Shown here: positions 5,145 to 59,991 of the stretch, in pieces
How the letters are laid out: each line of letters opens with the position of its first letter
Position numbering within the stretch: the stretch's first letter is position 1
Assembly: GCF_023015805.1 (NCBI RefSeq)
Contig: NZ_JALKBA010000014.1
Coordinates: 1-64,000 of the forward strand
Direction of reading: 5' to 3'
DNA: 64,000 nucleotides
Origin: Cellulophaga sp. F20128
GTDB taxonomy: Bacteria; Bacteroidota; Bacteroidia; Flavobacteriales; Flavobacteriaceae
Notes under the pieces: model-generated
The model's input: only the letters and a program-made list of their open reading frames with translations
Told to the model about the DNA's origin: nothing
Databases searched by the model: none
Position numbers and translations under genes: made by a program

Positions 5145-5146
5145 TT

Positions 5147-5176
5147 AAAAAGGCTTCCAAATTTGGAAGCCTTTTT
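5147..5176 (+). terminator. lepA intrinsic terminator
   Basis: A perfect inverted repeat, AAAAAGGCTTCC and its complement around a short AAATTT-centred loop, ends in a T tract. It begins three bases after the lepA stop codon. Confidence 0.93.
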
Positions 5177-5234
5177 AATTTAAATTCTTTATGCGCCAAA
5201 CCCTTTGGGAGCGCGTAAATTGTTCATTTTAATG

Positions 5235-34100: not shown

Positions 34101-37100
34101 GGACCAGTAACATCAAAAGTGTAAGGGGCTCCACCACCACCAGTTATTCCGGTAATAGAAATTAAACCTGGTAAATTACAAGAGATATCTCTCGTAGCAA
34201 CTGCTGTAGCTTCTAATTCTTTTAGTTGGTCAACCAAAGCATTTTCACTACCACCTCTACAAGAATCAGTAGAATTATCAGATTGAACTATCTCAATATA
34301 ATATTCTCCTTGCGCAAGTCCAGTAAAAGAAATTTCATTATCATATAGAACATTTTGTGCAGGAGCTGGGGCCAAAGCACCACTTACTGCCATTGGAATT
34401 GGGTTGCCTAATTCATAGAATTCCCATCTCATATGAGAGTTTGGTGTAATGGGGTTTAATGTATATGTAATAGTACCCGTTGTACCACCAAAACAACTAG
34501 GTGTAATTTCACTAGTAATGTCTATTGGTAAAGGCGCTACTAAATCATTTACATTTTCAAGACTTTGGCGCACACAACCTGTTGCATCTTTTACATAAAA
34601 AACATAAGTTCTACCTGGAGTTAATCCTAACCATGTATAGTTTCCATGACCCGCGGGTACGGTTGCAGGTACATTATTTATAGTTCCTCCCGGAACCCAT
34701 GTTGCAGTTAAAGGATTGAAGGTTGCAGGATCTTCAGCATAAGCATATTCGTATGGAGCTACACCTGCTGTTCCTTGAACAGTAACTTCTAAGTCAGTAC
34801 AATCTACTACAATTGCGCTAATACTAATATCTAAATTATCTAAAGGATAAGGGATAATATATCTTGGAAAATCTGTTTGACAAATAGTACCACTAGCTAA
34901 TGTAACTCTAATTGATGGGTATACTTCTGTTCCAGATGGAATTCCTCTTTGTTCTATACCATTAGTATTCCAGGTAGTACCATTATCATAACTATATTCA
35001 ATTAGCGTAGCTGCTGGGGTAGTAAGGTTAGCAAATTCAAAACCATAATCTGTTGGTACAGAACTGGCACAATCATTAGGTAAAATAGGCTCAATATCAG
35101 CAGTAATTTCTACGGCATTATTTATTGTTGTTGTAATTGAAGTAACAGAACATCCATCAGCATCCGTAATTGTTATTTCATAATCTCCAACTCCAACTCC
35201 AGCAAATTCGTTTGTTGTAACGCCAATGTTTGTATAGGTTACCCCATAGTCAATACCATCGGCAGCAGTTAAATCTGTTAAGGTATAGGTATATGGTGCA
35301 TTTCCACCAGCAACAGTTGCAACAATAGAACCTAGTCCATCATAACATTCTGGATCATTTGCTGTTCCAGTTACTGTTAATGGTGCAGCAGTATTTACTA
35401 TGATATCTTCTTCTGAATACGAACATAAATAGCTTATGCCATTATTATCTTGCACGTAGACATCGTAACCAGCAGGGTTTGCAGTGGCCATTGCGTTTGT
35501 AACTACTAAATTATTGGTTGTTGTAAATAATCCTGTTGGGTCACCGTTTGCAGGAACAATAGCATATACTAAAGTACCATTACCTCCTGTTGCATTTACG
35601 GTTATACTACCATCTGCACAAGAACTTACGTGTACTGTTTCAACACTAACAACCAATTGTGGACTTAAAATAACAGTCTGTTGTGCTGCTGTACAACCAA
35701 AGCCATCTTTAACATCAATGGTATAAGATGCGTTTGCCAGACCTGTAAAAGTATGGCTAGTAGCGGTATTGTTTGGGTTCACCCATGGTCCGCCATTGAT
35801 ACTTAACTGAAAGTTTCCATTGCCAGGAATAGAAGTGATATCTACCTGTATTGTACCGTCATTTGCACCAGAGTAACATGCAGTTGGGGTTGTTGTAAAT
35901 GTTGGTACTTCAGGAGCAGTAACAGTAATTGCAGGAGTCACAACATTTGTACATGAATTGCTGTCTTGTACTCTTACTATATAGTTTTCTCCCGATGCAT
36001 TAGCTGGTACATCTGTAAATATTGCAGAAGGTTGATATCCTACAACTACTGCACCTCCATCAATTTCTAATTGATAGCTATACGTTGGTGTACCACCACT
36101 TGCAACAGCAGTAATTGTTGCACCAGTATTGTTACAAGTAAAGTCATCTGTTATGGATGCCGTTGCTGTAACTTCTGTAGGCTGTGTTAACTCTTGTGTC
36201 AATGTTATACTACATCCATTATCATCCACATCCCTAACCTCAATAGTATAGGTTTGTGCCGATAAACCAGTAACTGTTTGGGATGTTGTAAAAGCGGCCG
36301 AAAAAGCACCACCGTTTATAGAGTATTCAAATCCGCCAGCACCAAAATTACTTGCATTAATCACAAATTCTCCATCAGTACTTCCAAAACAAGAATTGTT
36401 TTTTGGGTTAGTAACAGTTGCACCAAAAGCTTTCCCGGCTTCAATTACTACATCAAAAGTAGCAGTTGTAGCACAAACTTCTGGCACTTGAAATGCTTGT
36501 ATATCATCTATAGCAATATCATTTCCTCCAGTTACCGCAGAATTTGTACGAATAACAATATCTAAATTAGTGTTTGCACCAGGGTTAAGTGTTACACTAT
36601 AATTATGCCAATCATCAGCATTATTATTTTTAGGAATGTTACCTGTTGCAGTACTGGCAATTACTGTACCACCACCATCAACTAATTGTATTTCTATGGT
36701 AGGATCGCCACCACTAGTACCTGATCTTAATAAATTATAGGCCCAAGTAGATATAGTAATATCTCTGTTTGGGATAACTTCTATTGCTCTTTTAGCATAG
36801 ATAATACCTCCAACACCAGCTACACCACCAACGTTAATTGCTAGGAATCTTCCGTTAGGGTTTCCGGTATGGTCATTAGGATTTCTCCAAGAACCAAAAG
36901 GCGAAGCAATTGCTTGTGTTACCGAATATTCACCATCATTAATAGCTGTATTTACAGAATTACAAATAGCAATCGTACCATTTTGTGGTTCATAACAATA
37001 GGCAGGATCTATTTGTGAAATACTTGTATTTGCTCCCGAACCAAAGTTTTCGGATAATAAATTACTTGGTGCTGGTGCAATATTTGATATGTAATCTATA

Positions 37101-40100
37101 GTAATTGCATGATTTCCAGCGGAAACATCGCTAAATAGATTATTTGTATTCGGCGTATTTTCGGTGCCGTCTATAGAATAAATATAATCAAAATCAGTAC
37201 TACTTGACGTTATTGTGATTTCACCAAGTCCATCACAATCATAAGAAATACTAGGTGTAAATGTAGGAGCAGCTGGTGCAGGATCTACAGTTACAATCAT
37301 TTGAAACGTACATAAATTAGCATCTCTAATAAATAAAGTATGTGTACCAGGTAATAAATAGTTTATCGGATTTGTACTGTAAGAAGTACCACCATTAAAA
37401 CTATATTCATAACTAGGTGTACCTCCTTGAGCATTGGTAATTCTAACCTCAGCTCCGGTAATTGGGTTACATTCGTATAAGGCAGTAACTGCCGCAGAAG
37501 CCGACAAAGTAAACGGTTCTGTTATAGTGTGTGTATCTGTAACTTCACAGTTATTGGCATCTCTTACCCTAATACTGTAACTGCCAGCAGCTAAATTAGG
37601 GAAGGTGTTGGTAGTTTGATAATTGGTACCACCATTAATACTATACCTGTAAGGAGCTTCACCTCCAGTAGTTGTAATTGTTAAGGTAGATTGCGCCTCA
37701 CCACTACAAAGTATGTTGGTACTTGCGGTAGAAACGGTTAAAGCAGCATCTTTTTCAATAGTTAAGTCGATTTTAGCTTCACAGAAAGTTCCTGTTCCGT
37801 TAGCATCACGTACATAAACATCATAATCTCCTGCACCTGTTGTAACTGTTCTTGGATTGGTTGTTGTAAAGTTTCCTGCAGTTGGTGTAACTCCATTTGC
37901 TACAATGGCATACACATAGTTAGTACCATCGCCGCCAGCAGCAGTAATGGTAACATTTGTATCTGTAGCACAAGCAGTTATATTATCTGCAGCAGCCGTT
38001 ACCGTTAATTCTGGGTTTACGGTTATTGTTGCAGTTGCTGTACAATTTTTACCATCAATAACATCTATGGTGTATGTTCCTGGGTTTAATCCCGAAAATA
38101 TAGCGCTAGTACCATAAGCACCACCATTTAATCTGTATTGATAATTGCCATCTCCACCTGCAGTTACACTAGCTGTAAGTTCTAGTCCGGCACCTACTGT
38201 AAAACAAGTAGTATTAGGTGTTATTGCTAAGGTAGGAGCAACTGAGGCATCTAAAATAAAACTAGCCGTTGCAATACAACCGTTAGCATCTTCTACAGCA
38301 ACCGTATAAGTTCCTGCTTGGTTTAAGTTGTTAAAAGTACCAGTACCGTTTGTAAATGTAGTTGATGCATCTGGGTAAGTAATTGTAAAATCATTACTAC
38401 CCCAACCGCCATTGGCTGTTAGAATTACCCTACCATCTGCTGTACATGTAGGTTGTGTTTCATTGGCAGATAGGGTTAAGGCAGCTGTTGGTGATGCAAT
38501 AACAACATCGGCAGTGGCTGTACAATTCGTTGCTGTATCTGTTACTGTAATTGTATAGGTTCCATTATCTAAATTTGTTAATGGAATACTCGTAGAATTC
38601 ACTGCTGTACCAGCAGGAACTGTAGTAGGACCCGTAATTGTATAGTTATAGGTACTATTAAATCCAGATACTGTAAAAGTTGCTTCACCATCTGTATCAT
38701 CAAAGCAAGTGATATTACTTACCAAACTCCCAGATACATTAATTGGATCTACAGGACGTATAGTAAAGCTTTCTTCAAACGTACAACCTTTAGCATCTGT
38801 TACCATAAAGGTATAGGTATCTGGTACTAAATCAGCAAATGAGCCTGTATTACCCGTTATAGTGGTTGCAGTTATTGCCGTAGGAGCAATAATCGTAAAG
38901 TTAAAAGGTGCCGTTCCATTTGCAACGGTTACGGTTACGTCTGATGTTTGCGTTGGACAATTAGGAGCTGTAGCTGTAAAGTTTAAATCTGTTGGCTCGT
39001 TTAATGGAGCTATTGTTATTTCATTGGTGACAAACGTACACAAGTTCGCATCTCTAATGGTAATGCTGTAGGTTCCGTTGGTTAGGTTCGCAAAAGTTTC
39101 TGCACCTGCAGCGGGACCAACAAAATTTACACCGTCAATACTATAGCTATATGGGGCTTCACCGCCAATTACATTTTGTGCTTCTATGGTTGCCTCTTGC
39201 AGGCAAGTATAATCTTGGGTTAAAACAGCAGTACCACCTATACCACTTGTAGGGCCACCAATTGTAAAGGTTTCATCAAAATCACAAACGGCAGTACCAT
39301 TTGTTTGCGTAATAGTTAAGGTATAATTTCCTTGTGCTAAGTTTGTAAAATTACCAGAACCATTAACTGTATTAGAGCCATCTGGGTTTAGTAAATCATA
39401 AGTCATTGTATACCCATTACTAGCCGTAATATCTACAACATAACTACCATCATTAGCTCCAAAACAAGACTCATCTATTCCTGTTGTTGTATAGGTTATT
39501 GAAGGTGCAATGGTTATTGTTTCTTCATTCGTAATAGCATAACAATTATTACTATCAACAACAATGAATTCATAAGTTCCTTGTTCAGTTGCATCAAATG
39601 TAAAATCACTAGTAGCTTGAAACTCACTAGGAGGAATATCATTTAATGAAAATGGTGTTGGGTATAAGTCTGTGCCATCTTTACTCCAAATAGCATAAGA
39701 ATATCCAGGGTTCGCAAAACCTCCCGTACCTGTAACTGTTATTGTACCATCAGTACAGTCTATTGCTTTGGTTGTTAAAGCAGTAGCTGCAAGATCGGAA
39801 ACGTCATTAATTGTTATTTCTTCTGTATAAGTACAGCCATCATCAGTACTTACCGTTACATCATAAACACCATCGTTTAAGTTTTCAAAGGTATAATCGT
39901 TATCATCGGTAGGACCATAGGTATCTACGGTTGTTCCGCCTTGAGAAATCTCAAAATAGTATTGTGGCTCTACATCTTCAGCAGATATACGAATTTCGCC
40001 CAAACCACTACAATCTGTATCTTTTGTTGTAATATTTACTTCATAATCTCTAGTTCTTACGCCTAAATCTTCCAATCTAAATAGACATCCGTCTACAACA

Positions 40101-42556
40101 CCTTGTTGTCTAATTTCAACGGTATATGCTCCATTATTTGCTATAGAAAAGTTAGGGCCATTATTAGCACTAAAAGGTACGATTACAGCATCTGTTGCAG
40201 CGTTTAATAGTTGAAACTCATAGTTGGCAGGAATATTTGTAACTGATATATTACCAGGGGTTGCACAAATAATATCGCTAATTGTAGCCATAGGATCTAA
40301 TGGGTTTTTAAACACATTAAAATAAAAGCGACTAAAACAACCGTTTTGGTAGTTAACAATTACGCGGTACTGTCCGGGATCTGAAGCTAAAAGTGTACTT
40401 CCAGATTCTATTCTAGTCCATGTACAGGTACCATTTTTATTTGCACAATCTTCAACCGAAGCACCACAACTAGCTTCGTCTAATTTTTCCCAGTGTATGC
40501 TAGTTGCATCTGGAATGTTAATTGTTACGGGTTCAACATCGTTTAAACCACATAAGAAAATTTTTGGTAAGGGATCGCCATCTATAGGACAAATGGTTAT
40601 TTCACCTTCAACGGTATTTGAAGGGTCACTTATTAGGGTTGCGATTGGGTTTGTTTGTGTTTGTCCAAAACGTTCTACCGTAATAATTTCTTGAAAACCT
40701 TTACATGGATCTGCAACTATTTTGTCTACTATATAAGTACCAATATCATCTACTAAAAGGGTACTTAAATCATTGTCAGAATTCCCATCATTTAAAACGG
40801 TATCTGCACCATCTATTACTCCATTGTTATTTTCATCCTTATACCAGATATAATCATCAAAATTATCACCAGCATCTAAAAGGACTTCATCACCACAGAG
40901 TTGTACGGTTCTATTATAGTCACAGTCTTCCAAATCATCCAACAAGAAGTTAGTTGCCCCTGGAGTTGTAAATCCGCAATTATCAAAATCGGTTACACTT
41001 GGGTCATCTGTTATTATGTTGTCGTTTAATACTCCTTGGTAGGTAGAATACGCAAGGTTTTGAATTAAATCGGAACATGCGTTTATAAAATCGAAACAAT
41101 TTTCTGCAACTTTTACCCGCATACGAATGCTATAGGTAGACCCACCTTCTAGTACATAATTATTTGGAATAGAAAAAAGTACAGTTCTGGTACTTGGATC
41201 ATAGGTATAGCTTACACCTGAAGGGTACGTAATATGGGCTTCATCTAGGGTTACATTTAGAGGTAGAATATCTTTAATCGTATAATTATCAGCATCGTCA
41301 TTCCCTACATTTTGAAAGGATAATACATATTCTAAGGTTTGTCCTAAATTTACGCCTAGGCCAGTTATGTCATTTCCTCCAATATCCTCTACCCTTTTAG
41401 ATAAGTTTATGGTTGGTTCTATGATCTCTACGTCAAAAGAGGTAAAGAAAATATCGTATTTATCTCCCGTGGAAGTAGCTCTTAAGGTAGCCCCAGTTTC
41501 ATCGTTGGGTATAACTGACCTTGCGGGGTTAGGAATTGTAAAAAGATCGGCATCCCATCCTAAGGTATTTATACTGTTCGGGTTTCGGGTATTTATAACC
41601 GTGTTTTCAATGGTTATATTACTATTAAAAAAGTTATTGGTTGGGTTAACTGTGTTGCCCAAAGGAGTATAGGTGGCGTTACTATTTGCTCTAATGGATA
41701 GACCATCTCCCGTAATTCTATTATCACCCTCTAAGGTACTAACACCCAATCTAGCGTTCACTGGAAAAGGGTTGGGTAAGGTTGTAAATCCAGAAACTGG
41801 AATATCAACAGATTCTCCAGAGGCTATACCGGCATAACCATCAAAAGTTGTAATGTATTTTCCAGGATAGGTTGGGTTTTCATAAACAACAACCATAGTC
41901 CATCCACCAGAAACCCCGCCAGAAGGACTCTCACCAACACTTGCTCTTATATTGGCAACTGTATATTCCCCATTAGGATCTGCTAAACCTGTAATTATAG
42001 AAGTGATATCCTTATAACAAGCATACGGACTATAGTAATCAAAATCGGTATCTCCGTAGCCATCAAAAAGGACTTCATCTGCTGAAATATCCAAATATGA
42101 TCCTCCTGGAATCTTAAATTTAATATCACCAATATTACTTCTATCAGTCTCATTGGAGTATACTGCCGACCAATATAATCCTGCATACCGAACTAAGGAA
42201 CAGCTGGCATCAGGCACCGTTAATTCGGAACTACTAGAACTAAAAGTTGTATCGTCACTGTCAATATCAATGTATTGCATGTCCCAGCTATCATTACTGG
42301 TGGAACTATTTCCGGTTTGATTATACGAATCATTTGCATCCTTTGGAATGGAAACCCATGTATAACCAGACCACCAAGAACCAGTCCAATACCCTTCATC
42401 ACCTTCTCGGTTAACAATGTTGTTTGCTATAATAGTTAAATCACCACGCAAACTATTGTTATAACGCGGCTCAAAATCGTTTTTTACTTGACCATAGGTA
42501 TTTACGGTTGCAAAAAGGGTGAGGATAAATAATAAAAATCGTTTTAAAAAATTCAT
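28181..42556 (-). CDS. sprB: Giant SprB-like gliding adhesin with type B T9SS signal
   Basis: This is a cell-surface adhesin of about 4,791 residues, exported by the type IX secretion system. The ATG at 42556 gives a normal signal peptide (FLKRFLLFILTLFATVNTYGQ); an in-frame TTG 13 codons earlier is less likely. After an N-terminal domain (about 25-370) comes a DUF11-like domain (about 375-487, NLGQTLEYVLSFQNVGNDD). From roughly residue 880 there are about 40 SprB-type repeats by eye, each ending in a version of F-x2-L-x2-G-x-Y-x4-V-x-D-x3-C. One repeat is interrupted by a different beta-rich domain (about 1826-2031). The C-terminus (about 4705-4791, VPNFFTPDGD to VGHFTLYR) is the gliding type B sorting domain. 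The F. johnsoniae SprB is somewhat larger. Gene order sprC-sprD-sprB-sprF supports the name. Confidence 0.92.
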   Translation of the reverse strand: MNFLKRFLLFILTLFATVNTYGQVKNDFEPRYNNSLRGDLTIIANNIVNREGDEGYWTGSWWSGYTWVSIPKDANDSYNQTGNSSTSNDSWDMQYIDIDSDDTTFSSSSSELTVPDASCSLVRYAGLYWSAVYSNETDRSNIGDIKFKIPGGSYLDISADEVLFDGYGDTDFDYYSPYACYKDITSIITGLADPNGEYTVANIRASVGESPSGGVSGGWTMVVVYENPTYPGKYITTFDGYAGIASGESVDIPVSGFTTLPNPFPVNARLGVSTLEGDNRITGDGLSIRANSNATYTPLGNTVNPTNNFFNSNITIENTVINTRNPNSINTLGWDADLFTIPNPARSVIPNDETGATLRATSTGDKYDIFFTSFDVEIIEPTINLSKRVEDIGGNDITGLGVNLGQTLEYVLSFQNVGNDDADNYTIKDILPLNVTLDEAHITYPSGVSYTYDPSTRTVLFSIPNNYVLEGGSTYSIRMRVKVAENCFDFINACSDLIQNLAYSTYQGVLNDNIITDDPSVTDFDNCGFTTPGATNFLLDDLEDCDYNRTVQLCGDEVLLDAGDNFDDYIWYKDENNNGVIDGADTVLNDGNSDNDLSTLLVDDIGTYIVDKIVADPCKGFQEIITVERFGQTQTNPIATLISDPSNTVEGEITICPIDGDPLPKIFLCGLNDVEPVTINIPDATSIHWEKLDEASCGASVEDCANKNGTCTWTRIESGSTLLASDPGQYRVIVNYQNGCFSRFYFNVFKNPLDPMATISDIICATPGNISVTNIPANYEFQLLNAATDAVIVPFSANNGPNFSIANNGAYTVEIRQQGVVDGCLFRLEDLGVRTRDYEVNITTKDTDCSGLGEIRISAEDVEPQYYFEISQGGTTVDTYGPTDDNDYTFENLNDGVYDVTVSTDDGCTYTEEITINDVSDLAATALTTKAIDCTDGTITVTGTGGFANPGYSYAIWSKDGTDLYPTPFSLNDIPPSEFQATSDFTFDATEQGTYEFIVVDSNNCYAITNEETITIAPSITYTTTGIDESCFGANDGSYVVDITASNGYTMTYDLLNPDGSNTVNGSGNFTNLAQGNYTLTITQTNGTAVCDFDETFTIGGPTSGIGGTAVLTQDYTCLQEATIEAQNVIGGEAPYSYSIDGVNFVGPAAGAETFANLTNGTYSITIRDANLCTFVTNEITIAPLNEPTDLNFTATAPNCPTQTSDVTVTVANGTAPFNFTIIAPTAITATTITGNTGSFADLVPDTYTFMVTDAKGCTFEESFTIRPVDPINVSGSLVSNITCFDDTDGEATFTVSGFNSTYNYTITGPTTVPAGTAVNSTSIPLTNLDNGTYTITVTDTATNCTATADVVIASPTAALTLSANETQPTCTADGRVILTANGGWGSNDFTITYPDASTTFTNGTGTFNNLNQAGTYTVAVEDANGCIATASFILDASVAPTLAITPNTTCFTVGAGLELTASVTAGGDGNYQYRLNGGAYGTSAIFSGLNPGTYTIDVIDGKNCTATATITVNPELTVTAAADNITACATDTNVTITAAGGDGTNYVYAIVANGVTPTAGNFTTTNPRTVTTGAGDYDVYVRDANGTGTFCEAKIDLTIEKDAALTVSTASTNILCSGEAQSTLTITTTGGEAPYRYSINGGTNYQTTNTFPNLAAGSYSIRVRDANNCEVTDTHTITEPFTLSASAAVTALYECNPITGAEVRITNAQGGTPSYEYSFNGGTSYSTNPINYLLPGTHTLFIRDANLCTFQMIVTVDPAPAAPTFTPSISYDCDGLGEITITSSSTDFDYIYSIDGTENTPNTNNLFSDVSAGNHAITIDYISNIAPAPSNLLSENFGSGANTSISQIDPAYCYEPQNGTIAICNSVNTAINDGEYSVTQAIASPFGSWRNPNDHTGNPNGRFLAINVGGVAGVGGIIYAKRAIEVIPNRDITISTWAYNLLRSGTSGGDPTIEIQLVDGGGTVIASTATGNIPKNNNADDWHNYSVTLNPGANTNLDIVIRTNSAVTGGNDIAIDDIQAFQVPEVCATTATFDVVIEAGKAFGATVTNPKNNSCFGSTDGEFVINASNFGAGGFEYSINGGAFSAAFTTSQTVTGLSAQTYTIEVRDVDDNGCSITLTQELTQPTEVTATASITDDFTCNNTGATITAVASGGTPTYSYQLEIDGGAVVVGYQPSAIFTDVPANASGENYIVRVQDSNSCTNVVTPAITVTAPEVPTFTTTPTACYSGANDGTIQVDITSIPGNGNFQLSINGGPWVNPNNTATSHTFTGLANASYTIDVKDGFGCTAAQQTVILSPQLVVSVETVHVSSCADGSITVNATGGNGTLVYAIVPANGDPTGLFTTTNNLVVTNAMATANPAGYDVYVQDNNGISYLCSYSEEDIIVNTAAPLTVTGTANDPECYDGLGSIVATVAGGNAPYTYTLTDLTAADGIDYGVTYTNIGVTTNEFAGVGVGDYEITITDADGCSVTSITTTINNAVEITADIEPILPNDCASSVPTDYGFEFANLTTPAATLIEYSYDNGTTWNTNGIEQRGIPSGTEVYPSIRVTLASGTICQTDFPRYIIPYPLDNLDISISAIVVDCTDLEVTVQGTAGVAPYEYAYAEDPATFNPLTATWVPGGTINNVPATVPAGHGNYTWLGLTPGRTYVFYVKDATGCVRQSLENVNDLVAPLPIDITSEITPSCFGGTTGTITYTLNPITPNSHMRWEFYELGNPIPMAVSGALAPAPAQNVLYDNEISFTGLAQGEYYIEIVQSDNSTDSCRGGSENALVDQLKELEATAVATRDISCNLPGLISITGITGGGGAPYTFDVTGPVGFTALTGLTSNPIQIPVNSPAGNYTVTIIDQYGCSNTVALNSVPLTLTANPTIDNVTQDNCSAPISVTVAASSLAGNIRYALVPAGNPVPTYYLTNGGLFNNVSPGSYDVHIIDGNGCTDILTTFVVNPVLSAKAELTKLLDCTAAPDAVITIEALTGSGNYEYSISGAATVASTTLTSPFDYPATTAGVYTITVYDMDTPNSAVCNRVFTIEVPAAVTPIFTHTLTDITCNTAADGTITLYQTDNGINPLTYTITPSVGTFDATTSTFSNLPPNTYTVTATGTNGCPATIPNIVIADVDPIVIADAVVTEFGCTAGNTNNYASITVDNTAANITGGSTTYVIYEFINDNNTVATGDDVIVQSGSNNVYIETNTAGGSYTINVYDNNGCVGSIDRDIAPYDELLTATASVTADITCDPGSDGEITIAVTSSTNDVSKFEYSIDNGLSWQTTISHTNPEIFTGLEVGTHNFLVRHSDTDCIISTSATITSPDVLELDATIVSNVICFGGNDGSVEFDLHDAANVTYPNPIEYILYHDTNNTPANTGDDVQTPGSSPNGNFVINNLVAGSYYIEVKQTPDPKCTYTEAFTIAGPSAAITAATEVTAVTCLGNDGIIEVINPAGGWGDYVYYVDVAGNPAPVFPTDYVSNPKFLGLSGAAAPAGTDYQVWVADKNGCIVQLPNVNLVEPTDISATIQVNQENCTNLEGEIEVIGTIGGQGSNYTYQLIKNGIAVGSPQPTRIFSGLGAGSYTVLINDQWSCDYTTAATLLYEEINVSTTVVKPIDCTVDPGGQITVNVTGGSTNLEYEVTFPDLTTIQTQTNNAIFTGLTQIGTYSFVIRDLDTNTPICEKPVTQALVDKVDPILLASTVDNVSCFGLTDGTITANLDPATNVDPIYTYNLYDAIGTTQIGVNQTSPTFTGLAAAVYQIEVVSAKGCSIRETIEVTQPTALVISAVATEFACAPNNTVNTATITVTIEDGVTTPGTPSGTSPFLYSIDGVNFQSTNTFNVIDTGVAQTITVSVKDGNSCPQTTTVTIAPINKFTAVVTQDAAISCVGPEEITITVTDNGAATNVYTYEVLPIGNTNGTQTATPTYNTATYNLTAVGGYVFRVTDTATGCYVDTDAYTIAPYDLIKVQTTAITPVTCFGDTNGALEVTVTDATGPFTYTVLNADGTLLSPSITNTVTTNTFTISGLTGGSYYVAVKQDNAPECTEDSNIITIVSPDMPLSTVVNQTAAVTCNNDRGEIVVDPSGGYAPYDIVLTNTTTSVVFTATDVLTVTFEGLSAGNYTVSITDTSGCILNDTEVLAAATPITADITPPTTTLDCYGDSNGSVSAINVVGGQGIYQYKLNVYDATGTTITSTSGGQTSNTFNNLGAGIYTITVSDGWNCDIETIQAVITEPTDISGALIQLSELSCVDPAEIELIATGGTAPYLYSVDGVTYTAMSGGDTHRFTVNAGIYQYYVRDAFGCGDVISNQVNIDAVPTLEIILDESAAVINCNGESTASILAKGKGGLGNYSYELLDNPTSTSALQGPQTNGEFRNLAIGTYYVKVTSDGGCEVVSNAIMITEPDPLIIDLQDTTDVTCAGENDGTITVEVSGGTGEIKYAISPNLNQFDTKNVFTDLEPGTYDVIAQDENGCFITFNFTINEPTPIQLSATTTGETCTGNEDGMATVTITGGTAPYRTSLDSNDPADYVLGRVDFSGLSSGTHVILVKDANDCETNMVIEIEPGVNLKATATPIYECSTDTPTNYLEVVFEDNTTGSDVLYGLDTTDPSAMQLTSDFANMAPGDHYLFIMHANGCTETINFTVEGFDPLTLVLTNSNINEITATVTGGNPNYTFYIQGNNNGEENTFRIRETNTYTIVVEDENGCQVTQDIFIEFIDIEVPNFFTPDGDLIHNTWIPKNMEGFPNILTIIYDRYGRELYRMGINDSGWDGFYDGKELPSGDYWYTIKLNGENDDREFVGHFTLYR
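36465..37080 (-). other. Non-repeat beta-sandwich-like domain inserted in the SprB repeats
   Basis: Residues about 1826-2031 of SprB break the repeat pattern. The stretch contains NLLSENFGSG, AYCYEPQNGTIAIC, GRFLAINVGG, ISTWAYNLLRSG, GDPTIEIQLVDGGG, WHNYSVTLNPGANTNLDIVIRTN and GNDIAIDDIQAF. The closing 'D-I-A-I-D-D-I' strand and the WHxYxV strand are typical of MAM/lectin-like jelly-roll domains that bind calcium and ligands. The SprB-type pattern resumes right after it, which shows an insertion inside one repeat. Confidence 0.7.
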
Positions 42557-42569
42557 TTTATCTAATGGT

Positions 42570-42707
42570 TTAGGGACTGTTTTTATGAATTTCAATTGGG
42601 GCTATTGAAAATGAAATGGTTTGTTGAAAATCTTGAGCTTATGCTAATGCTATACAGGTAAGAAGTATGGCAAAAAAGAGGATTATTTTTGAAAATATTG
42701 GTTTCAT
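42570..42707 (-). CDS. Tiny signal-peptide ORF between sprD and sprB, with in-frame stop
   Basis: An ATG at 42707, six bases after the last base of the sprD stop region, opens a frame of 22 codons that ends in TAA at 42639-42641. The peptide is a perfect-looking signal sequence: MKPIFSKII, a hydrophobic core, then CIALA. If the TAA is read through, the same frame continues for 22 more codons (AQDFQQTISFSIAP and on) to a second TAA at 42570-42572, 13 bases before sprB. The stop thus falls just where signal peptidase would cut. It may be a small gene broken by a nonsense mutation, a genuine 22-residue membrane peptide, or a coupling leader. I do not know a homologue. Confidence 0.5.
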
Positions 42708-51905: not shown

Positions 51906-53417
51906 TTACCCTAGGAAAGCAATGGCATACTGAATTCGTTGTATGGTTTCTTTTTTTCCAATTAGCCCAATAATGTCAAAGACATGGACTCCTTTCATAT
52001 CACCTACTAAAACCAATCGCAAGGGAGGCATAACCTTTCCAAAAGACAATTCTTGGTCAGAAATCCATTGCTTCACTATGGCTTCTGTATTTTCTGATGT
52101 AAAATCAACAATGCCTTCTAAGACAATAACCAATTGGTTTAGTATTTCTGATGAACCATCTTTCCATTGTTTTTTTACGGCCTTTTCAGCATATTGGGTA
52201 GGTGCTTTAAAGAAGTAATCCCCTAAATCCCATAATTCATGCACAAAAGAAGCACGTTCCTTAATTAATGAAACTATTTTTGTAACAGTTTCAATAGTTG
52301 CTATTTCTGCTGTATTATCGGTATTTTTTTGTACAATGGGTAGAAATAATGCCGCAATATTAGCATCAGTTTTTGCTTGTAAATACTGGGTGTTATACCA
52401 TTTGGTTTTATCTGGATCAAATCGTGCCCCTGACTTGTTTACGCGTTCCAAAGAGAACTCCTTAATTAATTCATCAAGGCTAAAAATTTCTTGTTCTGTT
52501 CCTGGATTCCATCCCAACAACGCTAAAAAGTTTACGACAGCTTCCGGAAAATATCCTTCTTCTTTATAACCTACAGACTCTTTCCAGGAAAGCGGAAATA
52601 CGGGAAAACCAAGCTTTTCGCCATCGCGTTTGCTTAGTTTGCCTTTTCCAACGGGTTTCATAATTAAGGGTAGATGCGCAAATTCTGGTGTTTTCCAACC
52701 AAAGGCATCGTACAATTGTTGGTGTAGTGCTAAGGAAGGCAACCATTCTTCACCACGTATAACGTGTGTTATTTCCATTAAATGGTCGTCTACTATATTG
52801 GCCAAGTGATATGTAGGCATACCATCACTTTTAAATAGTACTTTGTCATCCAAGACATTTGTATCTATATGTATAGATCCACGTATGATGTCTGTTAACT
52901 TTAAATTTTCATTTTCTGGGGTCTTAAATCGGATAACATAGTCTTCATTGGTTGCTAACTTTGCATTGACTTCTTCAGTACTAAGTGCCAAAGAATTGTC
53001 TAGTTTTAGGCGGTTATGCCAATTGTAGATAAATGTTTTCCCTTCAGTTTCATGTTGCTTCCTGTGGGTATCTAAACTTTCTGAAGTATCAAAGGCGTAA
53101 TATGCATGCCCCTTTTCAATTAATAGATCTGCATATTTTCTATACAAATGTTTCCGTTCACTTTGTCTATAAGGTCCAAAGTCGCCTTCCTTTCCTGGTC
53201 CTTCATCATAAGAAATTCCACACCAATGTAGCGCTTCAATAATATAGTTTTCTGCTCCTTCTACATAACGGTTTTGGTCTGTATCTTCAATGCGTAGAAT
53301 AAAGTTACCCCCGTTTTTCTTTGCAAATAAGTAGTTAAACAATGCAGTGCGGACACCACCAATATGTAAAGGTCCGGTTGGACTAGGAGCAAAACGTACT
53401 CTAACTTTAGAACTCAT
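51906..53417 (-). CDS. gltX: Glutamyl-tRNA synthetase
   Basis: This class I synthetase charges tRNA-Glu; 503 residues. HIGH appears in FAPSPTGPLHIGGVRTALFNY, and the KMSKS counterpart is GKLSKRDGEKLGFPVF. The GluRS-specific 'RIEDTDQNRY' and 'YHLANIVDDHLMEITHVIRGEEW' are present, with an all-helical anticodon-binding C-terminus. A -7 element (TATCTTTG on the minus strand, 53438-53445) lies 21 bases before the ATG. It is divergent from the DUF4175 gene. Confidence 0.97.
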   Translation of the reverse strand: MSSKVRVRFAPSPTGPLHIGGVRTALFNYLFAKKNGGNFILRIEDTDQNRYVEGAENYIIEALHWCGISYDEGPGKEGDFGPYRQSERKHLYRKYADLLIEKGHAYYAFDTSESLDTHRKQHETEGKTFIYNWHNRLKLDNSLALSTEEVNAKLATNEDYVIRFKTPENENLKLTDIIRGSIHIDTNVLDDKVLFKSDGMPTYHLANIVDDHLMEITHVIRGEEWLPSLALHQQLYDAFGWKTPEFAHLPLIMKPVGKGKLSKRDGEKLGFPVFPLSWKESVGYKEEGYFPEAVVNFLALLGWNPGTEQEIFSLDELIKEFSLERVNKSGARFDPDKTKWYNTQYLQAKTDANIAALFLPIVQKNTDNTAEIATIETVTKIVSLIKERASFVHELWDLGDYFFKAPTQYAEKAVKKQWKDGSSEILNQLVIVLEGIVDFTSENTEAIVKQWISDQELSFGKVMPPLRLVLVGDMKGVHVFDIIGLIGKKETIQRIQYAIAFLG

Positions 53418-53445: not shown

Positions 53446-53549
53446 AGGTTAGTTATTTGTCCATTTTAATTGTAACACCCCCTTTTTTAACAATTTTTTT
53501 CTACCTATTTGTCAACTATCGGGTATCTTGGTATAAATTATACGAAATA

Positions 53550-56500
53550 GTGGATAGCCTAGATCACATATTGCGGAAGTTAAACGCTTTTAGTAGAAAG
53601 TATTACGCCAAAACACTGCTAAAGGGAGTACTTTTATTCCTCAGTTTTAGCTTATTATTTTTCTTGGTTGTTTTGGGTCTAGAATATTTCCTTTGGTTAA
53701 ATTCTACAGGACGCTTACTATTGTTACTTTCTTTTGTTTTGATTACTTTACTGTTGTTATATAATTTTATTTTAACTCCTTTGTTCTATTTGTTTCGATT
53801 AAAGAAAGGGATTTCAAATAAAGAAGCATCCTTGCTAATAGGAAGACATTTTCCAGAAGTAGGTGACAAATTGTATAACTTATTAGAGCTTGCCGAGGAC
53901 AAAACGAAGTCAGAATTGCTTTTAGCGAGTATAGCCCAACGTTCGGAAAATATGGATCCTATTCCTTTTGTTAAGGCAATTAACTTTAAGGATACCACCA
54001 AATATTTAAAATATACCCTAATACCAATTCTCCTTTTTGTGGCTATTTGGTTGTCTGGAAATTCAAGTAATTTTTTTGGATCCTATGCAAGGGTTGTTAA
54101 TTTTGAAACTGCTTTTGAACAACCAGCTCCATTTTTATTTCACCTTTCTAACTCTAGTTTATCCCTTTTAAAAGGGGAGAGTATTACCCTTCAAATTACT
54201 ACAAGTGGCGAGTATGTACCTCAGGATGTATATATCGTTATAAATAACCAAGAATTGCTTTTGGAATATGTAAACGGTTTCTATGAATATACCTTTTATG
54301 CTCCGGATAGTACCACATCCTTTTATTTTACAGCAAATGAAGTTCAATCCCAAGAATATACTTTAGAAGTTTTATCGGTACCCTTACTCAATGGTTTTGA
54401 AATGGAATTAGATTATCCAAACTATACCAGAAAAGAAACGGAGTTATTTAAAGGTACTGGAAATGCGACTATACCCGAAGGTACCCTTGTAAGTTGGACT
54501 ATCAATGGAGAAAATATAGATGAAATTTCCTTGGTGGTGAAGGATAGTTCTGTTTTCTTTTTAAATAACAGCCAGGGGTTTCAATTGTCAAAACAAATTT
54601 TTCAAGATACTGAATATCAAGTAAGTACCTCTAATGAAAATGTGCAGAACTATGAAAACCTTGCATATAAATTTACGGTAATTAGAGATGCAGATCCAAC
54701 TATAAATGTTGAACAGGTATTAGATTCTCTTAACCCAAATGTGTCTTACTATATTGGAAGTGCTTCCGATGACTATACGTTAAATAGGATTCATTTGGTA
54801 TGTTATCCATCAGATAGTATTCAAAATAAACAAGTTGTTGTTTTGGATGTACCTAAAACAAATGTTGCTCAATTTTATTATACTTTTCCTTCAGGCTTAT
54901 CTATTGTTGCTGGTAAGGTGTATAACTTTTACTTTGAGGCTATTGATAATGATACATTTCATGGAGGTAAAGGCGCTAAGAGTCAGGTATTTAGCACTTC
55001 TATTTTGGATGATAATCAACTGAAAAACAAGGAATTAGAACAGCAACATGAACTTTTAGGTAATTTTGATAAGTCGGTAGACAAGTTGAAACTTCAAAAA
55101 GAGAAATTAACCGAAATTAATACCAAACAAAAGGAAAAAAATAATCTTAGTTATAACGATCAAAATGAAATTAAGGATTTCCTTCGTAAGCAACAGAATC
55201 AGGAGCAATTGATGGAGAAGTTTAGTCAGGAATTAAAGGAAAATTTAAAAAAGAAAGAGGGGGATGACAAACAAAATTTGTTGTTACAAGAGCGATTGGA
55301 ACGTCAGGAATTAAAAGCAAAAAAGAACCAAGAGTTATTGGAAGAATTAAATAAAATTGCGGATAAAATAAATAAGGATGAATTAGGTAAACGATTGGAA
55401 GAATTAGCAAAAAGTCAAAAAAATAGTGAACGTAATTTGGAACAATTATTGGAACTTACAAAGAAATATTATGTCACTGAAAAATTAGGGCAATTAGCTA
55501 ATGAACTTGAAAAATTGGCAAGGGCTCAAGAAAAACTTTCTGAAGTAAAACTTAATTCAGATTATGTAAAAGAAGAACAGAAGAAATTGAATTTGGAATT
55601 TCAAGATTTTGGTGATGCATTAAAGGAATTACAAAAGGATAATGATAAATTACAAAAACCTTTAGATATTAAGGTAGACAAGTCCAAACAAGAAAGTATT
55701 ACTAGGGATCAAAAGGATGCGTTAGAGGAATTAAATAGTAATCCTGCTGAAAAAAAATCCTCGGATAGTGAATCAAATGATAATGAAAAACCGAATAGTG
55801 CTAATAAAAAACAAAAATCTGCTGCTGATAAAATGGAACAATTAAGCCAACAATTACAACGAGATTCGGCCAGTTGTAGTAGTGGTGAAAGCATATCGGA
55901 AGATGCAAATATGTTACGTCAAATTTTAGATAATCTAATTACGTTTTCCTTTAAACAAGAAAATTTGTACGAGGAAGTTGATTTAGGACAAACGGATTTG
56001 TCTCAATTTGCGGGTTCTATTAAAAAACAAAAGGAATTAAGAGGGCTGTTTGAACATGTAGACGATAGTTTGTTTGCGCTATCATTACGACAAATAAAAT
56101 TAGCCGAATTTGTTAACGAACAAATTACGGAGGTATATTATAATATAGACAAATCACTAGAGAATATAGCGGAAAATAGGATGTATCAAGGAATCTCTAA
56201 TCAGAAATATGTATTAAATGCTTCTAATAGTTTGGCAGATTTTTTGGCGGGTATGTTGGACAATTTGAATGAAGATATGAAATCTGGAAAAGGAAAGGGA
56301 CAAGGTGAAGGATTTCAATTACCCGATATTATTCAATCTCAATCAGAACTACAAAAAAAGATGGGAAAGGATGGAGAACAACCCGCGGTTGAGTCAGGAA
56401 AAAATCCTGGGGAAGGCAAGGAAGGCAAGGAAGGAAAATCTGGAAAAGAAGGTGAGTCTGGAAAAGAAGGTGAGTCTGGCAAGGGTGGCAATGGTCAAGG

Positions 56501-57014
56501 TGAAAAGCAGGAAAATGGAAAAGGTGGGTTAGGAGAAAACACAATCAAAGGTGAGGGTGGGCAAGGTTCTGGACAAAGCGGTGGACCTTCGGAAGAAGAA
56601 TTAAAAGAAATTTATGAAATTTATAAACAGCAACAAACTATTAGGCAGGAGTTAGAAAAACAACTGCAGGATATGATTTCAAATTCCGATATTGATTTGG
56701 CGAAAAAGGTGTTGCAACAAATGGAAGATTTTGAAAATGAACTTTTGGAAAACGGTATTACGGAAAGAACCAGAAATAAAGTGAATACCATTCAACATCA
56801 ATTATTAAAACTTGAAGGGGCGGCTATGAAGCAAGGTGAAAAAAGTGAACGTAAATCTGATCCTAATTTAGAACGCTTTAAAAATCCTATAACAACCAAG
56901 CCTGAGGCTCTAGAGAATTATCGGAATGAAATTGAAATTTTAAATAGACAAGCCCTACCTTTGCACCAAATTTTTCAAAGTAAAGTGCAACGTTATTTTA
57001 AGGTATATGATTAA
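53550..57014 (+). CDS. DUF4175-family large membrane protein
   Basis: This is a large inner-membrane protein of about 1,154 residues from a GTG at 53550; the reading frame is open further up to a TTG at 53457, but no ATG occurs before residue 137 of the chosen frame. The N-terminus, DSLDHILRKLNAFSRKYYAKTLLKGVLL, is like DUF4175 proteins of Flavobacteriia. Transmembrane helices lie near 28-48, 55-75 and 150-167. A beta-rich periplasmic region (about 175-510) and long coiled coils (about 520-800) follow. A Gly/Lys/Glu low-complexity stretch (about 951-1014) and a final helical part complete it. It overlaps ybeY by eight bases. The function is unknown; the shape suggests an envelope-spanning structural role. 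Confidence 0.85.
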   Translation: MDSLDHILRKLNAFSRKYYAKTLLKGVLLFLSFSLLFFLVVLGLEYFLWLNSTGRLLLLLSFVLITLLLLYNFILTPLFYLFRLKKGISNKEASLLIGRHFPEVGDKLYNLLELAEDKTKSELLLASIAQRSENMDPIPFVKAINFKDTTKYLKYTLIPILLFVAIWLSGNSSNFFGSYARVVNFETAFEQPAPFLFHLSNSSLSLLKGESITLQITTSGEYVPQDVYIVINNQELLLEYVNGFYEYTFYAPDSTTSFYFTANEVQSQEYTLEVLSVPLLNGFEMELDYPNYTRKETELFKGTGNATIPEGTLVSWTINGENIDEISLVVKDSSVFFLNNSQGFQLSKQIFQDTEYQVSTSNENVQNYENLAYKFTVIRDADPTINVEQVLDSLNPNVSYYIGSASDDYTLNRIHLVCYPSDSIQNKQVVVLDVPKTNVAQFYYTFPSGLSIVAGKVYNFYFEAIDNDTFHGGKGAKSQVFSTSILDDNQLKNKELEQQHELLGNFDKSVDKLKLQKEKLTEINTKQKEKNNLSYNDQNEIKDFLRKQQNQEQLMEKFSQELKENLKKKEGDDKQNLLLQERLERQELKAKKNQELLEELNKIADKINKDELGKRLEELAKSQKNSERNLEQLLELTKKYYVTEKLGQLANELEKLARAQEKLSEVKLNSDYVKEEQKKLNLEFQDFGDALKELQKDNDKLQKPLDIKVDKSKQESITRDQKDALEELNSNPAEKKSSDSESNDNEKPNSANKKQKSAADKMEQLSQQLQRDSASCSSGESISEDANMLRQILDNLITFSFKQENLYEEVDLGQTDLSQFAGSIKKQKELRGLFEHVDDSLFALSLRQIKLAEFVNEQITEVYYNIDKSLENIAENRMYQGISNQKYVLNASNSLADFLAGMLDNLNEDMKSGKGKGQGEGFQLPDIIQSQSELQKKMGKDGEQPAVESGKNPGEGKEGKEGKSGKEGESGKEGESGKGGNGQGEKQENGKGGLGENTIKGEGGQGSGQSGGPSEEELKEIYEIYKQQQTIRQELEKQLQDMISNSDIDLAKKVLQQMEDFENELLENGITERTRNKVNTIQHQLLKLEGAAMKQGEKSERKSDPNLERFKNPITTKPEALENYRNEIEILNRQALPLHQIFQSKVQRYFKVYD
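56400..56590 (+). repeat. Short tandem codon repeats, Gly/Lys/Glu-rich tract
   Basis: Within the DUF4175 gene, GGCAAGGAA-type 9-mers are followed by two copies of an 18-bp unit, GAAGGTGAGTCTGGAAAA and a variant. They encode GKEGKEGKSGKEGESGKEG and further glycine-rich sequence. The tract is a likely site of replication slippage in multiples of three. Confidence 0.8.
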
Positions 57015-57426
57015 CTTTCATTACGAATCAGAGTTCAGGTTAACGAAAGAAACCAAGTTTTCCGATTGGATTAATAGGATTATTATATCTGAAGGTTTTG
57101 TAACTGGAGATATCAATTATATTTTTTGTAATGATGAGTACTTGCTTGGAATCAATCAGAAATATTTAAACCACGATACCTATACTGATATTATTACTTT
57201 TGATTATAGAATGGGTAAATTGTTGAATTCAGATATTTATATTTCTGAAGAAAGGGTTTCCGATAATGCGGTTGAATTTAAAGTGGATTTTAGTGAGGAA
57301 TTGTTGCGGGTTATGGCACATGGTATATTGCATTTGTGTGATTATAAAGACAAATCGGTTAATGACAGTGTTTTAATGCGGGAAAAAGAAGAAGAAAAAA
57401 TTAAATTGTTCCACGTGGAACATTAA
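57007..57426 (+). CDS. ybeY: Endoribonuclease YbeY (rRNA maturation)
   Basis: This is a single-domain zinc endoribonuclease for 16S rRNA 3'-end processing and ribosome quality control; 139 residues. Key segments are INYIFCNDEYLLGINQKYLNHDTYTDIITF and the metal motif AHGILHLCDYKDKS. In the standard H-x3-H-x5-H motif the third His is replaced by Asp (HGILHLCDYKD), a change I recall in Bacteroidota YbeY. The start lies inside the DUF4175 gene (eight-base overlap). The last codons (LFHVEH) are written by the parS-like palindrome. The stop is four bases before mnmG. Confidence 0.94.
   Translation: MINFHYESEFRLTKETKFSDWINRIIISEGFVTGDINYIFCNDEYLLGINQKYLNHDTYTDIITFDYRMGKLLNSDIYISEERVSDNAVEFKVDFSEELLRVMAHGILHLCDYKDKSVNDSVLMREKEEEKIKLFHVEH
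57407..57422. other. parS-like ParB-binding palindrome, site 1
   Basis: TGTTCCACGTGGAACA is a perfect 16-bp palindrome that differs from the classical parS, TGTTTCACGTGAAACA, only at a symmetrical pair of bases. It overlaps the last codons of ybeY and lies eight bases before the mnmG ATG. ParB would load here for chromosome segregation if the site is real. Confidence 0.7.
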
Positions 57427-57430
57427 AGTT

Positions 57431-59299
57431 ATGTTTGATAAAGAATACGATGTTATTGTTGTAGGTGCCGGTCATGCTGGTGCCGAAGCTGCTGCTGCTG
57501 CTGCGAATTTAGGTTCCAAAACTTTGTTAGTTACAATGAACTTACAAACCATTGGCCAGATGTCGTGCAACCCAGCCATGGGGGGTATCGCAAAAGGACA
57601 AATTGTTCGGGAGATAGATGCTCTTGGTGGCTATAGTGGAATTATTTCTGATAAATCTGCCATTCAATTTAAGATGCTTAATAAATCCAAGGGACCTGCA
57701 ATGTGGAGTCCTCGGACCCAAAATGACCGCATGCGTTTTGCGGAGGAATGGCGTTTGGCTTTGGAGCGAACTCCAAATGTTGACTTTTATCAGGAAATGG
57801 TTTCAGGTTTAATTGTTGAGGATGGCAAGGTTTGTGGAGTAACTACTTCCTTGGGAATAGGTATTAGATCTAAGTCGGTTGTCCTTACTAATGGCACCTT
57901 TTTAAATGGATTAATTCATATTGGAGATCGGCAATTGGGTGGAGGAAGAGCAGGAGAAAAAGCGGCAACGGGGATTACAGAACAATTGCTTAGTTATGGT
58001 TTTGAAAGTGGAAGGATGAAAACTGGAACTCCGCCTAGAGTTGATGGACGTTCTTTGGATTATTCTAAAATGCTGGTGCAACCGGGAGACGCTATTCCAG
58101 AAAAATTTTCTTATTCCAATACAAAGGCACTGAATCATCAAAGAGATTGTCACATGACACATACAAGTGCCTTGGTGCATGATTTGTTGCGTGAAGGATT
58201 TGATAGGTCTCCTATGTTTAATGGCCGTATAAAAAGTATAGGCCCTAGGTACTGTCCTTCTATTGAGGACAAAATAAATAGGTTTGCGGATAAGGATAAA
58301 CATCAGTTGTTTGTGGAGCCTGAAGGATGGGATACTGTAGAGGTTTATGTTAACGGTTTTTCAACTTCATTACCAGAAGATGTTCAATTTAAGGCGCTGC
58401 GTTCTGTAGTAGGTTTTGAAAATGTTAAGTTTTTTAGACCAGGTTACGCTATTGAATATGATTATTTTCCACCGACACAATTGAAACATACTTTAGAAAC
58501 GAAGCTAATTGAGAATTTATATTTTGCGGGTCAGATTAATGGTACTACAGGATATGAGGAAGCGGCAAGCCAAGGGTTAATGGCGGGGATCAATGCCCAT
58601 TTAAAAGTAAAGGAAGAAAATCCATTAATCCTACAAAGGGACGAAGCGTATATTGGTGTTTTAATTGATGATCTAATTACGAAAGGTACGGAGGAGCCTT
58701 ATAGAATGTTTACTTCTAGGGCAGAATATAGAACCTTATTGCGTCAAGATAATGCTGATATGAGGCTTACACCTAAAGGGCATAAAATTGGGTTGGCATC
58801 TGATGATCGATTAAGGCGCATGGAAGAAAAGGAACGAAAGTCAGAATCTTTTGTAAATTTCTTTAGGGAGACAAGTGTACTTCCTGAAGATATAAATCCA
58901 ATTTTAGAATCAGTAGATTCTGCTTTGGTAAAACAATCTGATAAAATGTTTAAGGCTTTTTCAAGACCGCAAGTTACTATGGATCACATGAAAACTTTGG
59001 CGGTTGTTTCTGACTTTATTGCTAAGGAAGAATTGGATAGGGAGGTCTTGGAACAAACAGAAATTCAGATTAAATATTCTGGCTATATTGCCAAGGAAAA
59101 AAATAATGCAGATAAACTACAGCGTTTAGAAAACATAAAAATTCCAGACAATTTTGATTATCGAAAATTAAAATCCCTTTCTTATGAAGCGCGGGAAAAA
59201 CTGGAAGCAATACGCCCAGTAACGATTTCTCAGGCATCAAGAATTAGCGGAGTGTCTCCAAGTGATATTAGTGTTCTTTTGGTTTTTATGGGACGCTAA
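57431..59299 (+). CDS. mnmG: tRNA uridine-5-carboxymethylaminomethyl synthase MnmG (GidA)
   Basis: This FAD-dependent enzyme modifies the wobble uridine (U34) of several tRNAs together with MnmE; 622 residues, normal length. The FAD-binding motif is VIVVGAGHAGAEAAAAAANLG. Family signatures are SCNPAMGGIAKGQIVREIDALGG, GRMKTGTPPRVDGRS with the catalytic-Cys region nearby, GQINGTTGYEEAASQGLMAGIN, and PYRMFTSRAEYR. The C-terminal helical domain ends ISGVSPSDISVLLVFMGR. Two identical parS-like sites flank it. The gene is origin-proximal in many bacteria. Confidence 0.97.
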   Translation: MFDKEYDVIVVGAGHAGAEAAAAAANLGSKTLLVTMNLQTIGQMSCNPAMGGIAKGQIVREIDALGGYSGIISDKSAIQFKMLNKSKGPAMWSPRTQNDRMRFAEEWRLALERTPNVDFYQEMVSGLIVEDGKVCGVTTSLGIGIRSKSVVLTNGTFLNGLIHIGDRQLGGGRAGEKAATGITEQLLSYGFESGRMKTGTPPRVDGRSLDYSKMLVQPGDAIPEKFSYSNTKALNHQRDCHMTHTSALVHDLLREGFDRSPMFNGRIKSIGPRYCPSIEDKINRFADKDKHQLFVEPEGWDTVEVYVNGFSTSLPEDVQFKALRSVVGFENVKFFRPGYAIEYDYFPPTQLKHTLETKLIENLYFAGQINGTTGYEEAASQGLMAGINAHLKVKEENPLILQRDEAYIGVLIDDLITKGTEEPYRMFTSRAEYRTLLRQDNADMRLTPKGHKIGLASDDRLRRMEEKERKSESFVNFFRETSVLPEDINPILESVDSALVKQSDKMFKAFSRPQVTMDHMKTLAVVSDFIAKEELDREVLEQTEIQIKYSGYIAKEKNNADKLQRLENIKIPDNFDYRKLKSLSYEAREKLEAIRPVTISQASRISGVSPSDISVLLVFMGR

Positions 59300-59315: not shown

Positions 59316-59357
59316 ACAAGAGGTCAATTGTTCCACGTGGAACAATTGACCTCTTGT
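59316..59357. other. 42-bp perfect palindrome with parS-like core, site 2
   Basis: The second TGTTCCACGTGGAACA (59329-59344) sits at the centre of a perfect palindrome with 21-base arms, from ACAAGAGGTC at 59316 to GACCTCTTGT at 59357. It begins 17 bases after the mnmG stop. No T tract follows, so it is not a standard terminator, though a transcript could fold on itself here. Confidence 0.75.
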
Positions 59358-59484: not shown

Positions 59485-59991
59485 ATGAAATACGTACTGT
59501 TGTTTTTTTGTTTGATTATTACAGGATCTTGTATTCCTGTAAAGTCGGCCCCAAGAATAGGAAACTACAAAATCGTAAAGGGAAAACAGTTTGAAAAGGG
59601 ATTGCCCGAACGCAATATTTTTGTTTTTGAAGACAAACAAGATGTGAATGCATTTTATCAGTTTATAGATGAAAAGTTTCAACTCGGAAATAAGCAAGTA
59701 ATGGACGACGTTCCTTTTACTGTAAATAAACATCAATATTTTTTTTCATTTTATGAGGTAGATAAAAAGAGTACAACTATAGATTTGTTTCCTTTTTTAG
59801 TAAGTAGGCTAACAAAAAGCGGGGAGGAAGATAGTCCTGAAATTCGTCAAGAGGATTTTTATTATATTGCCATAGAAGTATACAGCGATCTAGAAAACGA
59901 TTGTTTGGATATGGCAGCACTTTCCAGAACGCCGGTTTTAAATTATCTTCGCCAACTTAAAGATGAATATCAGAATTTACAAGAGCACTAA
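59485..59991 (+). CDS. Hypothetical lipoprotein upstream of a methyltransferase
   Basis: This is a 168-residue lipoprotein with the lipobox ITGSC (Cys16). No family is recognised. The mature part is mixed alpha/beta and has features such as GKQFEKGLPERNIFVFEDKQD, VPFTVNKHQYFFSFYEVDKK and a C-terminal DCLDMAALSRTPVLNYLRQLKDEY. It is three bases upstream of the methyltransferase gene and surely co-transcribed with it, although one product is in the envelope and the other in the cytoplasm. Confidence 0.8.
   Translation: MKYVLLFFCLIITGSCIPVKSAPRIGNYKIVKGKQFEKGLPERNIFVFEDKQDVNAFYQFIDEKFQLGNKQVMDDVPFTVNKHQYFFSFYEVDKKSTTIDLFPFLVSRLTKSGEEDSPEIRQEDFYYIAIEVYSDLENDCLDMAALSRTPVLNYLRQLKDEYQNLQEH

Follow-up and report, generated by a model that had tools for sequence, protein, structure and literature searches.

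In ParABS systems, ParB dimers load at parS sites and spread from them. To our knowledge, it is not settled how a parS site accommodates both transcription and ParB loading. In Pseudomonas aeruginosa, parS2 and parS3 consist of the 16-mer TGTTCCACGTGGAACA and are preferentially bound by ParB, as described in passages of PMC4368675, and passages of PMC9242446 report that DNA-bound roadblocks stop ParB sliding. A Hi-C study places parS clusters at origins, not always coinciding with dnaA (passages of PMC10197239). A literature search at the level of titles and the starts of abstracts gave no report, among the matches listed, of a parS fused to a transcription terminator; the word 'terminator' is absent from the passages seen of PMC7022226, and those of PMC5521831 mention vector terminators only.

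The 64,000-nt stretch of Cellulophaga sp. F20128 DNA analysed here (the window; genome G000) carries ybeY (57007–57426, plus strand; 139 aa, ending in ...LFHVEH*; TIGR00043, 82.5 bits, cut-off 45), mnmG (also gidA; 57431–59299, plus strand; 622 aa; TIGR00136, 843.5 bits, cut-off 524.85) and a 168-aa ORF as the next gene (59485–59991, plus strand). In a profile search at E 0.001, the translation of this ORF matched neither NCBIfam nor Pfam models, and its start is lipoprotein-like by our reading; a mnmG terminator would set it apart from mnmG. The first base of a perfect 42 bp palindrome, ACAAGAGGTCAATTGTTCCACGTGGAACAATTGACCTCTTGT (59316–59357), is found 17 bp past the last base of the mnmG stop codon. 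As the original prediction described, its two arms of 21 bases match perfectly and meet without a loop. No other loop-free palindrome of the window is as long, and across 30 simulations of the window with a first-order Markov model the arms reached 11 at most, against 21 observed. Its RNA is predicted to form a hairpin of 19 pairs at −31.0 kcal/mol, i.e., a stable stem-loop 3′ of a gene, as terminators have. The centre of the palindrome (59329–59344) is TGTTCCACGTGGAACA, identical to P. aeruginosa parS2/parS3. It is the downstream member of a pair, the upstream member being an exact copy at 57407–57422 with an arm of 8, which covers the last codons of ybeY and lies 8 bases ahead of the mnmG start. 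The upstream site is thus written into the YbeY C-terminus (57407–57426), so that a centromere site dictates protein-coding sequence, and the surrounding DNA is similar among congeners. Elsewhere in the window, 28181–42595 (minus strand) is a single ORF of 4804 aa with many repeats, adhesin-like by our reading.

In the whole genome (4,170,921 bases in 114 contigs), TGTTNCACGTGNAACA with at most one mismatch occurs at two places, 1.9 kb apart and flanking mnmG. Within the window, the 16-mer core with up to three mismatches gave two matches, both exact, against a mean of 0.18 in shuffles, and two or more such loose matches arose in 3 of 100 window shuffles. The 14-mer core with one mismatch was found at four further places in the genome against five for the reversed control, which is chance level. 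A chance origin of the parS sequence was rejected on the window shuffles, the genome-wide pair of cores and the conservation around mnmG. A single protein of the genome matches the ParB partition family (TIGR00180, 179.9 bits, cut-off 58.45), and it has the three Pfam domains ParB_N, HTH_ParB and ParB_C. The Noc model gave it 236.8 bits, above the bits of the general ParB model though below its own cut-off of 315, and a structure search retrieved solved ParB and Spo0J chains at 3e-51 to 3e-46 and Noc chains from 7e-46. A Noc site in place of parS was rejected because the sequence is that of parS and the protein falls under the Noc cut-off. The gene is part of an operon, parA-parB-ORF-dapB-lepB (dapB and lepB are named from our reading of the translations), on contig C114, a different contig from that of the parS pair. 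Taken with its restriction to two genome copies, its retention on both sides of mnmG, the skew data given below and the parAB operon, the identity to parS2/parS3 indicates that the core at 59329–59344 is very probably an ordinary origin-type chromosomal parS. The parS assignment of the original prediction is thereby strongly supported at the level of sequence, by identity, a genome-unique pair, conservation around mnmG, a canonical ParB gene and a position near the switch in skew. Its description of the core as one change away from the classical parS was incomplete, as the core is also identical to the P. aeruginosa sites in the passages of PMC4368675.

Both the parS identity and its conservation emerge directly from computation. 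A search of the genome and its relatives for the 16-mer, proposed as a check in the original prediction, gave two copies in the own genome and an exact site in 108 of the 149 genomes searched, a set that includes the own genome and some drafts. All 17 congeners have at least one exact site, and 16 have it as a pair around mnmG; G007 has a single exact site, 839 bp past mnmG. Among 144 genomes with an MnmG match, mnmG was examined with its flanks in 98, own included, leaving out 46 (8 of the family and 38 other members of the order, many small or fragmented), 28 of which lack the exact 16-mer, so that the flank rates that follow are not order-wide. The 14-mer core GTTNCACGTGNAAC lies at most 400 bp before mnmG in 94 of the 98 and at most 600 bp after it in 94, occurring on both sides in 91 and on neither in G040. 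In a phylum sample that partly overlaps the earlier set (loci from 50 of 80 sampled genomes), at least one core was present within the fetched stretch in 26 of 30 nearer and 18 of 20 more distant loci. Two contigs, L153 (Moraniibacteriota) and L141 (Moranbacteria), carry 14 and 11 parS cores, respectively, within about 1.5 kb.

The parS pair probably lies near the replication origin, a position that we infer for this genome. GC skew in 20-kb samples changes sign around mnmG in two of the three complete congeners sampled. In G002, where mnmG is at 1.514 Mb, the skew is −0.046 at 1.45 Mb and +0.157 at 1.57 Mb, with an odd sample of +0.041 at 0.38 Mb. In G015 the samples at 0.87 and 0.93 Mb, on either side of mnmG (0.914 Mb), read −0.133 and +0.031; odd samples of this genome are those at 0.75 Mb (+0.022) and 2.4 Mb (−0.025). 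The 20-kb samples of G014 reveal no clear switch. In each of the seven complete congeners searched, dnaA and mnmG are at least 1.3 Mb apart, and in the window's genome they are on different contigs; in a group where dnaA lies so far off, the mnmG-flanking parS pair offers a convenient candidate marker of the origin. Within the window, the strands diverge between a gltX-like gene (51906–53417, minus strand; our reading) and a 1185-aa ORF (53457–57014, plus strand) that gave no Pfam match, and GC skew turns strongly positive with the 8-kb bin that starts at 56 kb. By this divergence and skew, the origin may lie a few kb to the left of the parS pair.

Arms of at least 14 bp surround the downstream core in 11 of the 18 genomes of the genus. 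Their lengths are 21 in the window, 20 in G008, G013 and G014, 19 in G009, 17 in G005, 15 in G002, G003, G006 and G011, and 14 in G015; G016 has 12, and G001, G004, G007, G010, G012 and G017 have 8–11. Outside the genus, such arms occur among 79 downstream sites in G073 (20), G055 (17) and G088 (15). Arms this long are found at 14 of 96 downstream sites (mean 0.58 and maximum 4 in 2000 flank permutations) and 2 of 101 upstream sites (permuted mean 0.29), but congeners are not independent, so these permutation figures, and the Fisher and permutation figures below, overstate the weight of the evidence. The upstream site is without arm extension throughout the genus. The letters of the arms vary between genomes while the symmetry is kept; the inner flank AATT beside the core is common in the genus, and the outer arm sequence is not conserved. 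In an alignment of 20 sequences (the 18 genus sites plus G073 and G055, chosen as extended), both sides had changed in 14 of 22 pairs, a count reached by 18 of 500 shuffles (mean 11.3). Covariation was 0.311 against 0.089–0.127 for slid partners and was reached by none of 500 shuffles; kinship alone can beat such shuffles without any structure, making the slid-partner control the firmer of the two. Symmetry with covarying arms is an observed property of the site. Absence of the arms from close relatives had been named as grounds for discarding the original prediction, and here the outcome is mixed: arms of at least 14 occur in 11 of 18 genomes with compensatory changes, but the arm sequences differ and are shorter in seven.

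The flank CAATTG was also considered as a general extension of parS, and rejected. A scan of genome contigs for the extended 24-mer, which may omit records of the window's own genome, gave 38 stretches, four from Cellulophaga and the rest spread over many phyla; outside Cellulophaga their arms are 12–19, mostly 12–15, which argues against such a general extension. One Acidobacteriaceae MAG, palsa_418, has the extended 24-mer on eight contigs (L132, L144, L156, L158, L161, L163, L164 and L166), with similar flanks and, on five of the eight, a second core 73–76 bp away, possibly a parS-bearing repeat family.

Sites were scored as terminators by stem stability and T-tail with a formula of the d'Aubenton-Carafa type. 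In the sense of mnmG, 12 of 96 downstream sites score above zero (permuted mean 1.15–1.26, maximum 4 in 300), against 4 of 96 in antisense; the upstream sites give 0 of 101 in sense and 1 of 101 in antisense. The positive sense scores belong to the congeners G002, G003, G006, G008, G011, G014 and G015, weakly to G004 (arm 10), and to four other genera (G047, G055, G073 and G088). In these relatives the site has the form of a terminator with parS at its apex, e.g., the stem CCCAATTGTTCCACGTGGAACAATTGGG followed by TTTTTTTG in G002, G006 and G011, GGATTGTTCCACGTGGAACAATCC followed by TTTTTTATTTTT in G073, and GGGTTCCACGTGGAACCC followed by TTTTTATTTTTT in G047. Sense T-tracts accompany 11 of 21 extended sites (arm at least 12) against 17 of 75 others (Fisher p 0.010), and antisense T-tracts 3 of 21 against 4 of 75 (p 0.17, not significant). 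Parsimony requires at least seven changes of the fused state on a quickly built MnmG tree of 94 genomes. A count of family genomes with a T-run behind GTTNCACGTGNAAC (119 of 397) was set aside as evidence of fusion because many matches are the upstream site, where ybeY lysine codons read antisense give T-runs.

Six unfused congeners (G005, G007, G009, G013, G016 and G017) and the weakly fused G004 carry, immediately downstream of mnmG, a separate hairpin that resembles a terminator, and in G018, G038 and G057, which belong to other genera, parS is followed by a separate hairpin. With the T-tail of at least 2.5 that this search required, no separate hairpin was found within 350 nt after mnmG in G000, G001, G010 and G012. 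A gene of about 155–158 aa lies between mnmG and the downstream parS in G001, G010, G012 and G007 (L033, L042, L044 and L039); G005, G009, G013 and G016 have no such ORF there, and their separate hairpin directly follows mnmG. The parS sites of these last four lie +247 to +438 after mnmG and have arms of 12–20 without a strong T-tract, indicating that arms can exist there without termination.

In sense, the window's copy has a tail of 2.44 and a score of −3.8, bearing out the earlier remark that it has no good T-tract; in antisense the tail is 3.02 and the score +6.6. The earlier view that this is unlikely to be a normal terminator stands for the window's copy but missed its history, as several relatives carry parS atop a terminator-like stem with a T-tract. 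The supposition that a perfect palindrome of this length is rarely kept also needs correcting, long hairpins with perfect stems being not uncommon in this genome: a survey of 210,555 bases (about 5% of the genome) yielded 17 perfect hairpins (arm at least 12, loop at most 8), including a loop-free 38 bp palindrome at 5143–5180 in the window. Fifteen of the other 16 score at least 6.9 on one strand or both (L206:605 reaches only 0.4), and the best-strand score of the window's parS palindrome is the second lowest of the 17.

We consider it probable, if far from certain, that the palindrome is a chromosomal parS of the conserved mnmG-flanking pair, the arms of which are a stem merged with the intrinsic terminator of mnmG in this lineage, and that the T-tract has largely been lost here. 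ParB would load at both cores and spread, with ParA handling ParB for segregation. In the fused form, the self-complementary parS would provide the apex of the hairpin, the extra arm bases would strengthen the stem and the T-tract would complete the terminator, so that in the relatives transcription of mnmG probably stops at the parS hairpin. In the window's species, the stem would have been retained with altered letters and at its greatest length, whereas most of the T-tract apparently went. The longest arms joined to a weak T-tract are best read as a parS that once shared a terminator stem and later lost the T-tract; loss, as opposed to never having gained it, depends on a tree in which G000 groups with G008 with a support of only 89/83. 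At present the element may serve as parS and as a stable hairpin at the mRNA end, capping the 3′ end of mnmG or terminating weakly, perhaps, speculatively, with the aid of bound ParB. A bolder and rather doubtful extension is that some Flavobacteriaceae use a single functional element as both centromere site and mnmG terminator, in which RNA polymerase is stopped exactly at parS, sparing the loading site, and a ParB roadblock lets a hairpin with a weak T-tract terminate. If so, termination would depend on ParB. Sister species with the same parS inside or outside the terminator of the preceding gene offer a natural comparison.

The main rival concerns the origin of the arms. The site could be a plain parS whose core nucleates hairpins during replication, with template switching copying one arm to the other, so that the palindrome is extended and refreshed without selection. 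This is possible, though we think it unlikely; it accounts for arms that differ between close species yet remain perfect, for extension without a strong T-tract in the window, G005, G009, G013 and G016, and for the unextended upstream site in the end of ybeY. However, arms are under 12 at 75 of 96 downstream sites, congeners included, and template switching alone does not predict that extension goes with sense T-tracts, an association itself weakened by relatedness. A role of the arms in enhancing ParB loading, or in binding a second, cruciform-recognising protein, would suit the perfect symmetry and the common inner AATT, but appears very improbable given an outer arm sequence that is not conserved, a partner parS at 57407 that is unextended and the lack of extension in most relatives; the cruciform-binding protein suggested in the original prediction thus finds no support here. 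Least credible is an ordinary terminator with a parS-like apex by chance. Several relatives do score as terminators at the site, but this explanation is already contradicted by a core that 94 of 98 genomes retain downstream of mnmG, mostly unfused (12 of 96 sites score above zero), and that is present in exact form only twice in the whole genome.

Among described systems, the merged parS–terminator stem that we favour resembles intrinsic terminators in its stable perfect stem 17 bp past the mnmG stop and, at the equivalent site of the relatives named above (the weak G004 apart), in a stem followed by a T-tract; it differs in the weak T-tract of the window's copy and in having a protein-binding site as apex. 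The bidirectional A-stem-T hairpins of the same genome (5143–5180 and 61705–61751) are likewise long and perfect, but they are flanked by A and T runs, and each strand scores between 17.9 and 43.1, against −3.8 and +6.6 for the parS palindrome. With the ParABS sites of P. aeruginosa (parS2/parS3) and the Spo0J sites it shares canonical ParA and ParB, a probably origin-proximal position and, for parS2/parS3, the identical 16-mer. Unlike these, the window's copy is set within a 42 bp palindrome with covarying arms, and the genome has two sites only, both flanking mnmG, with parAB on another contig.
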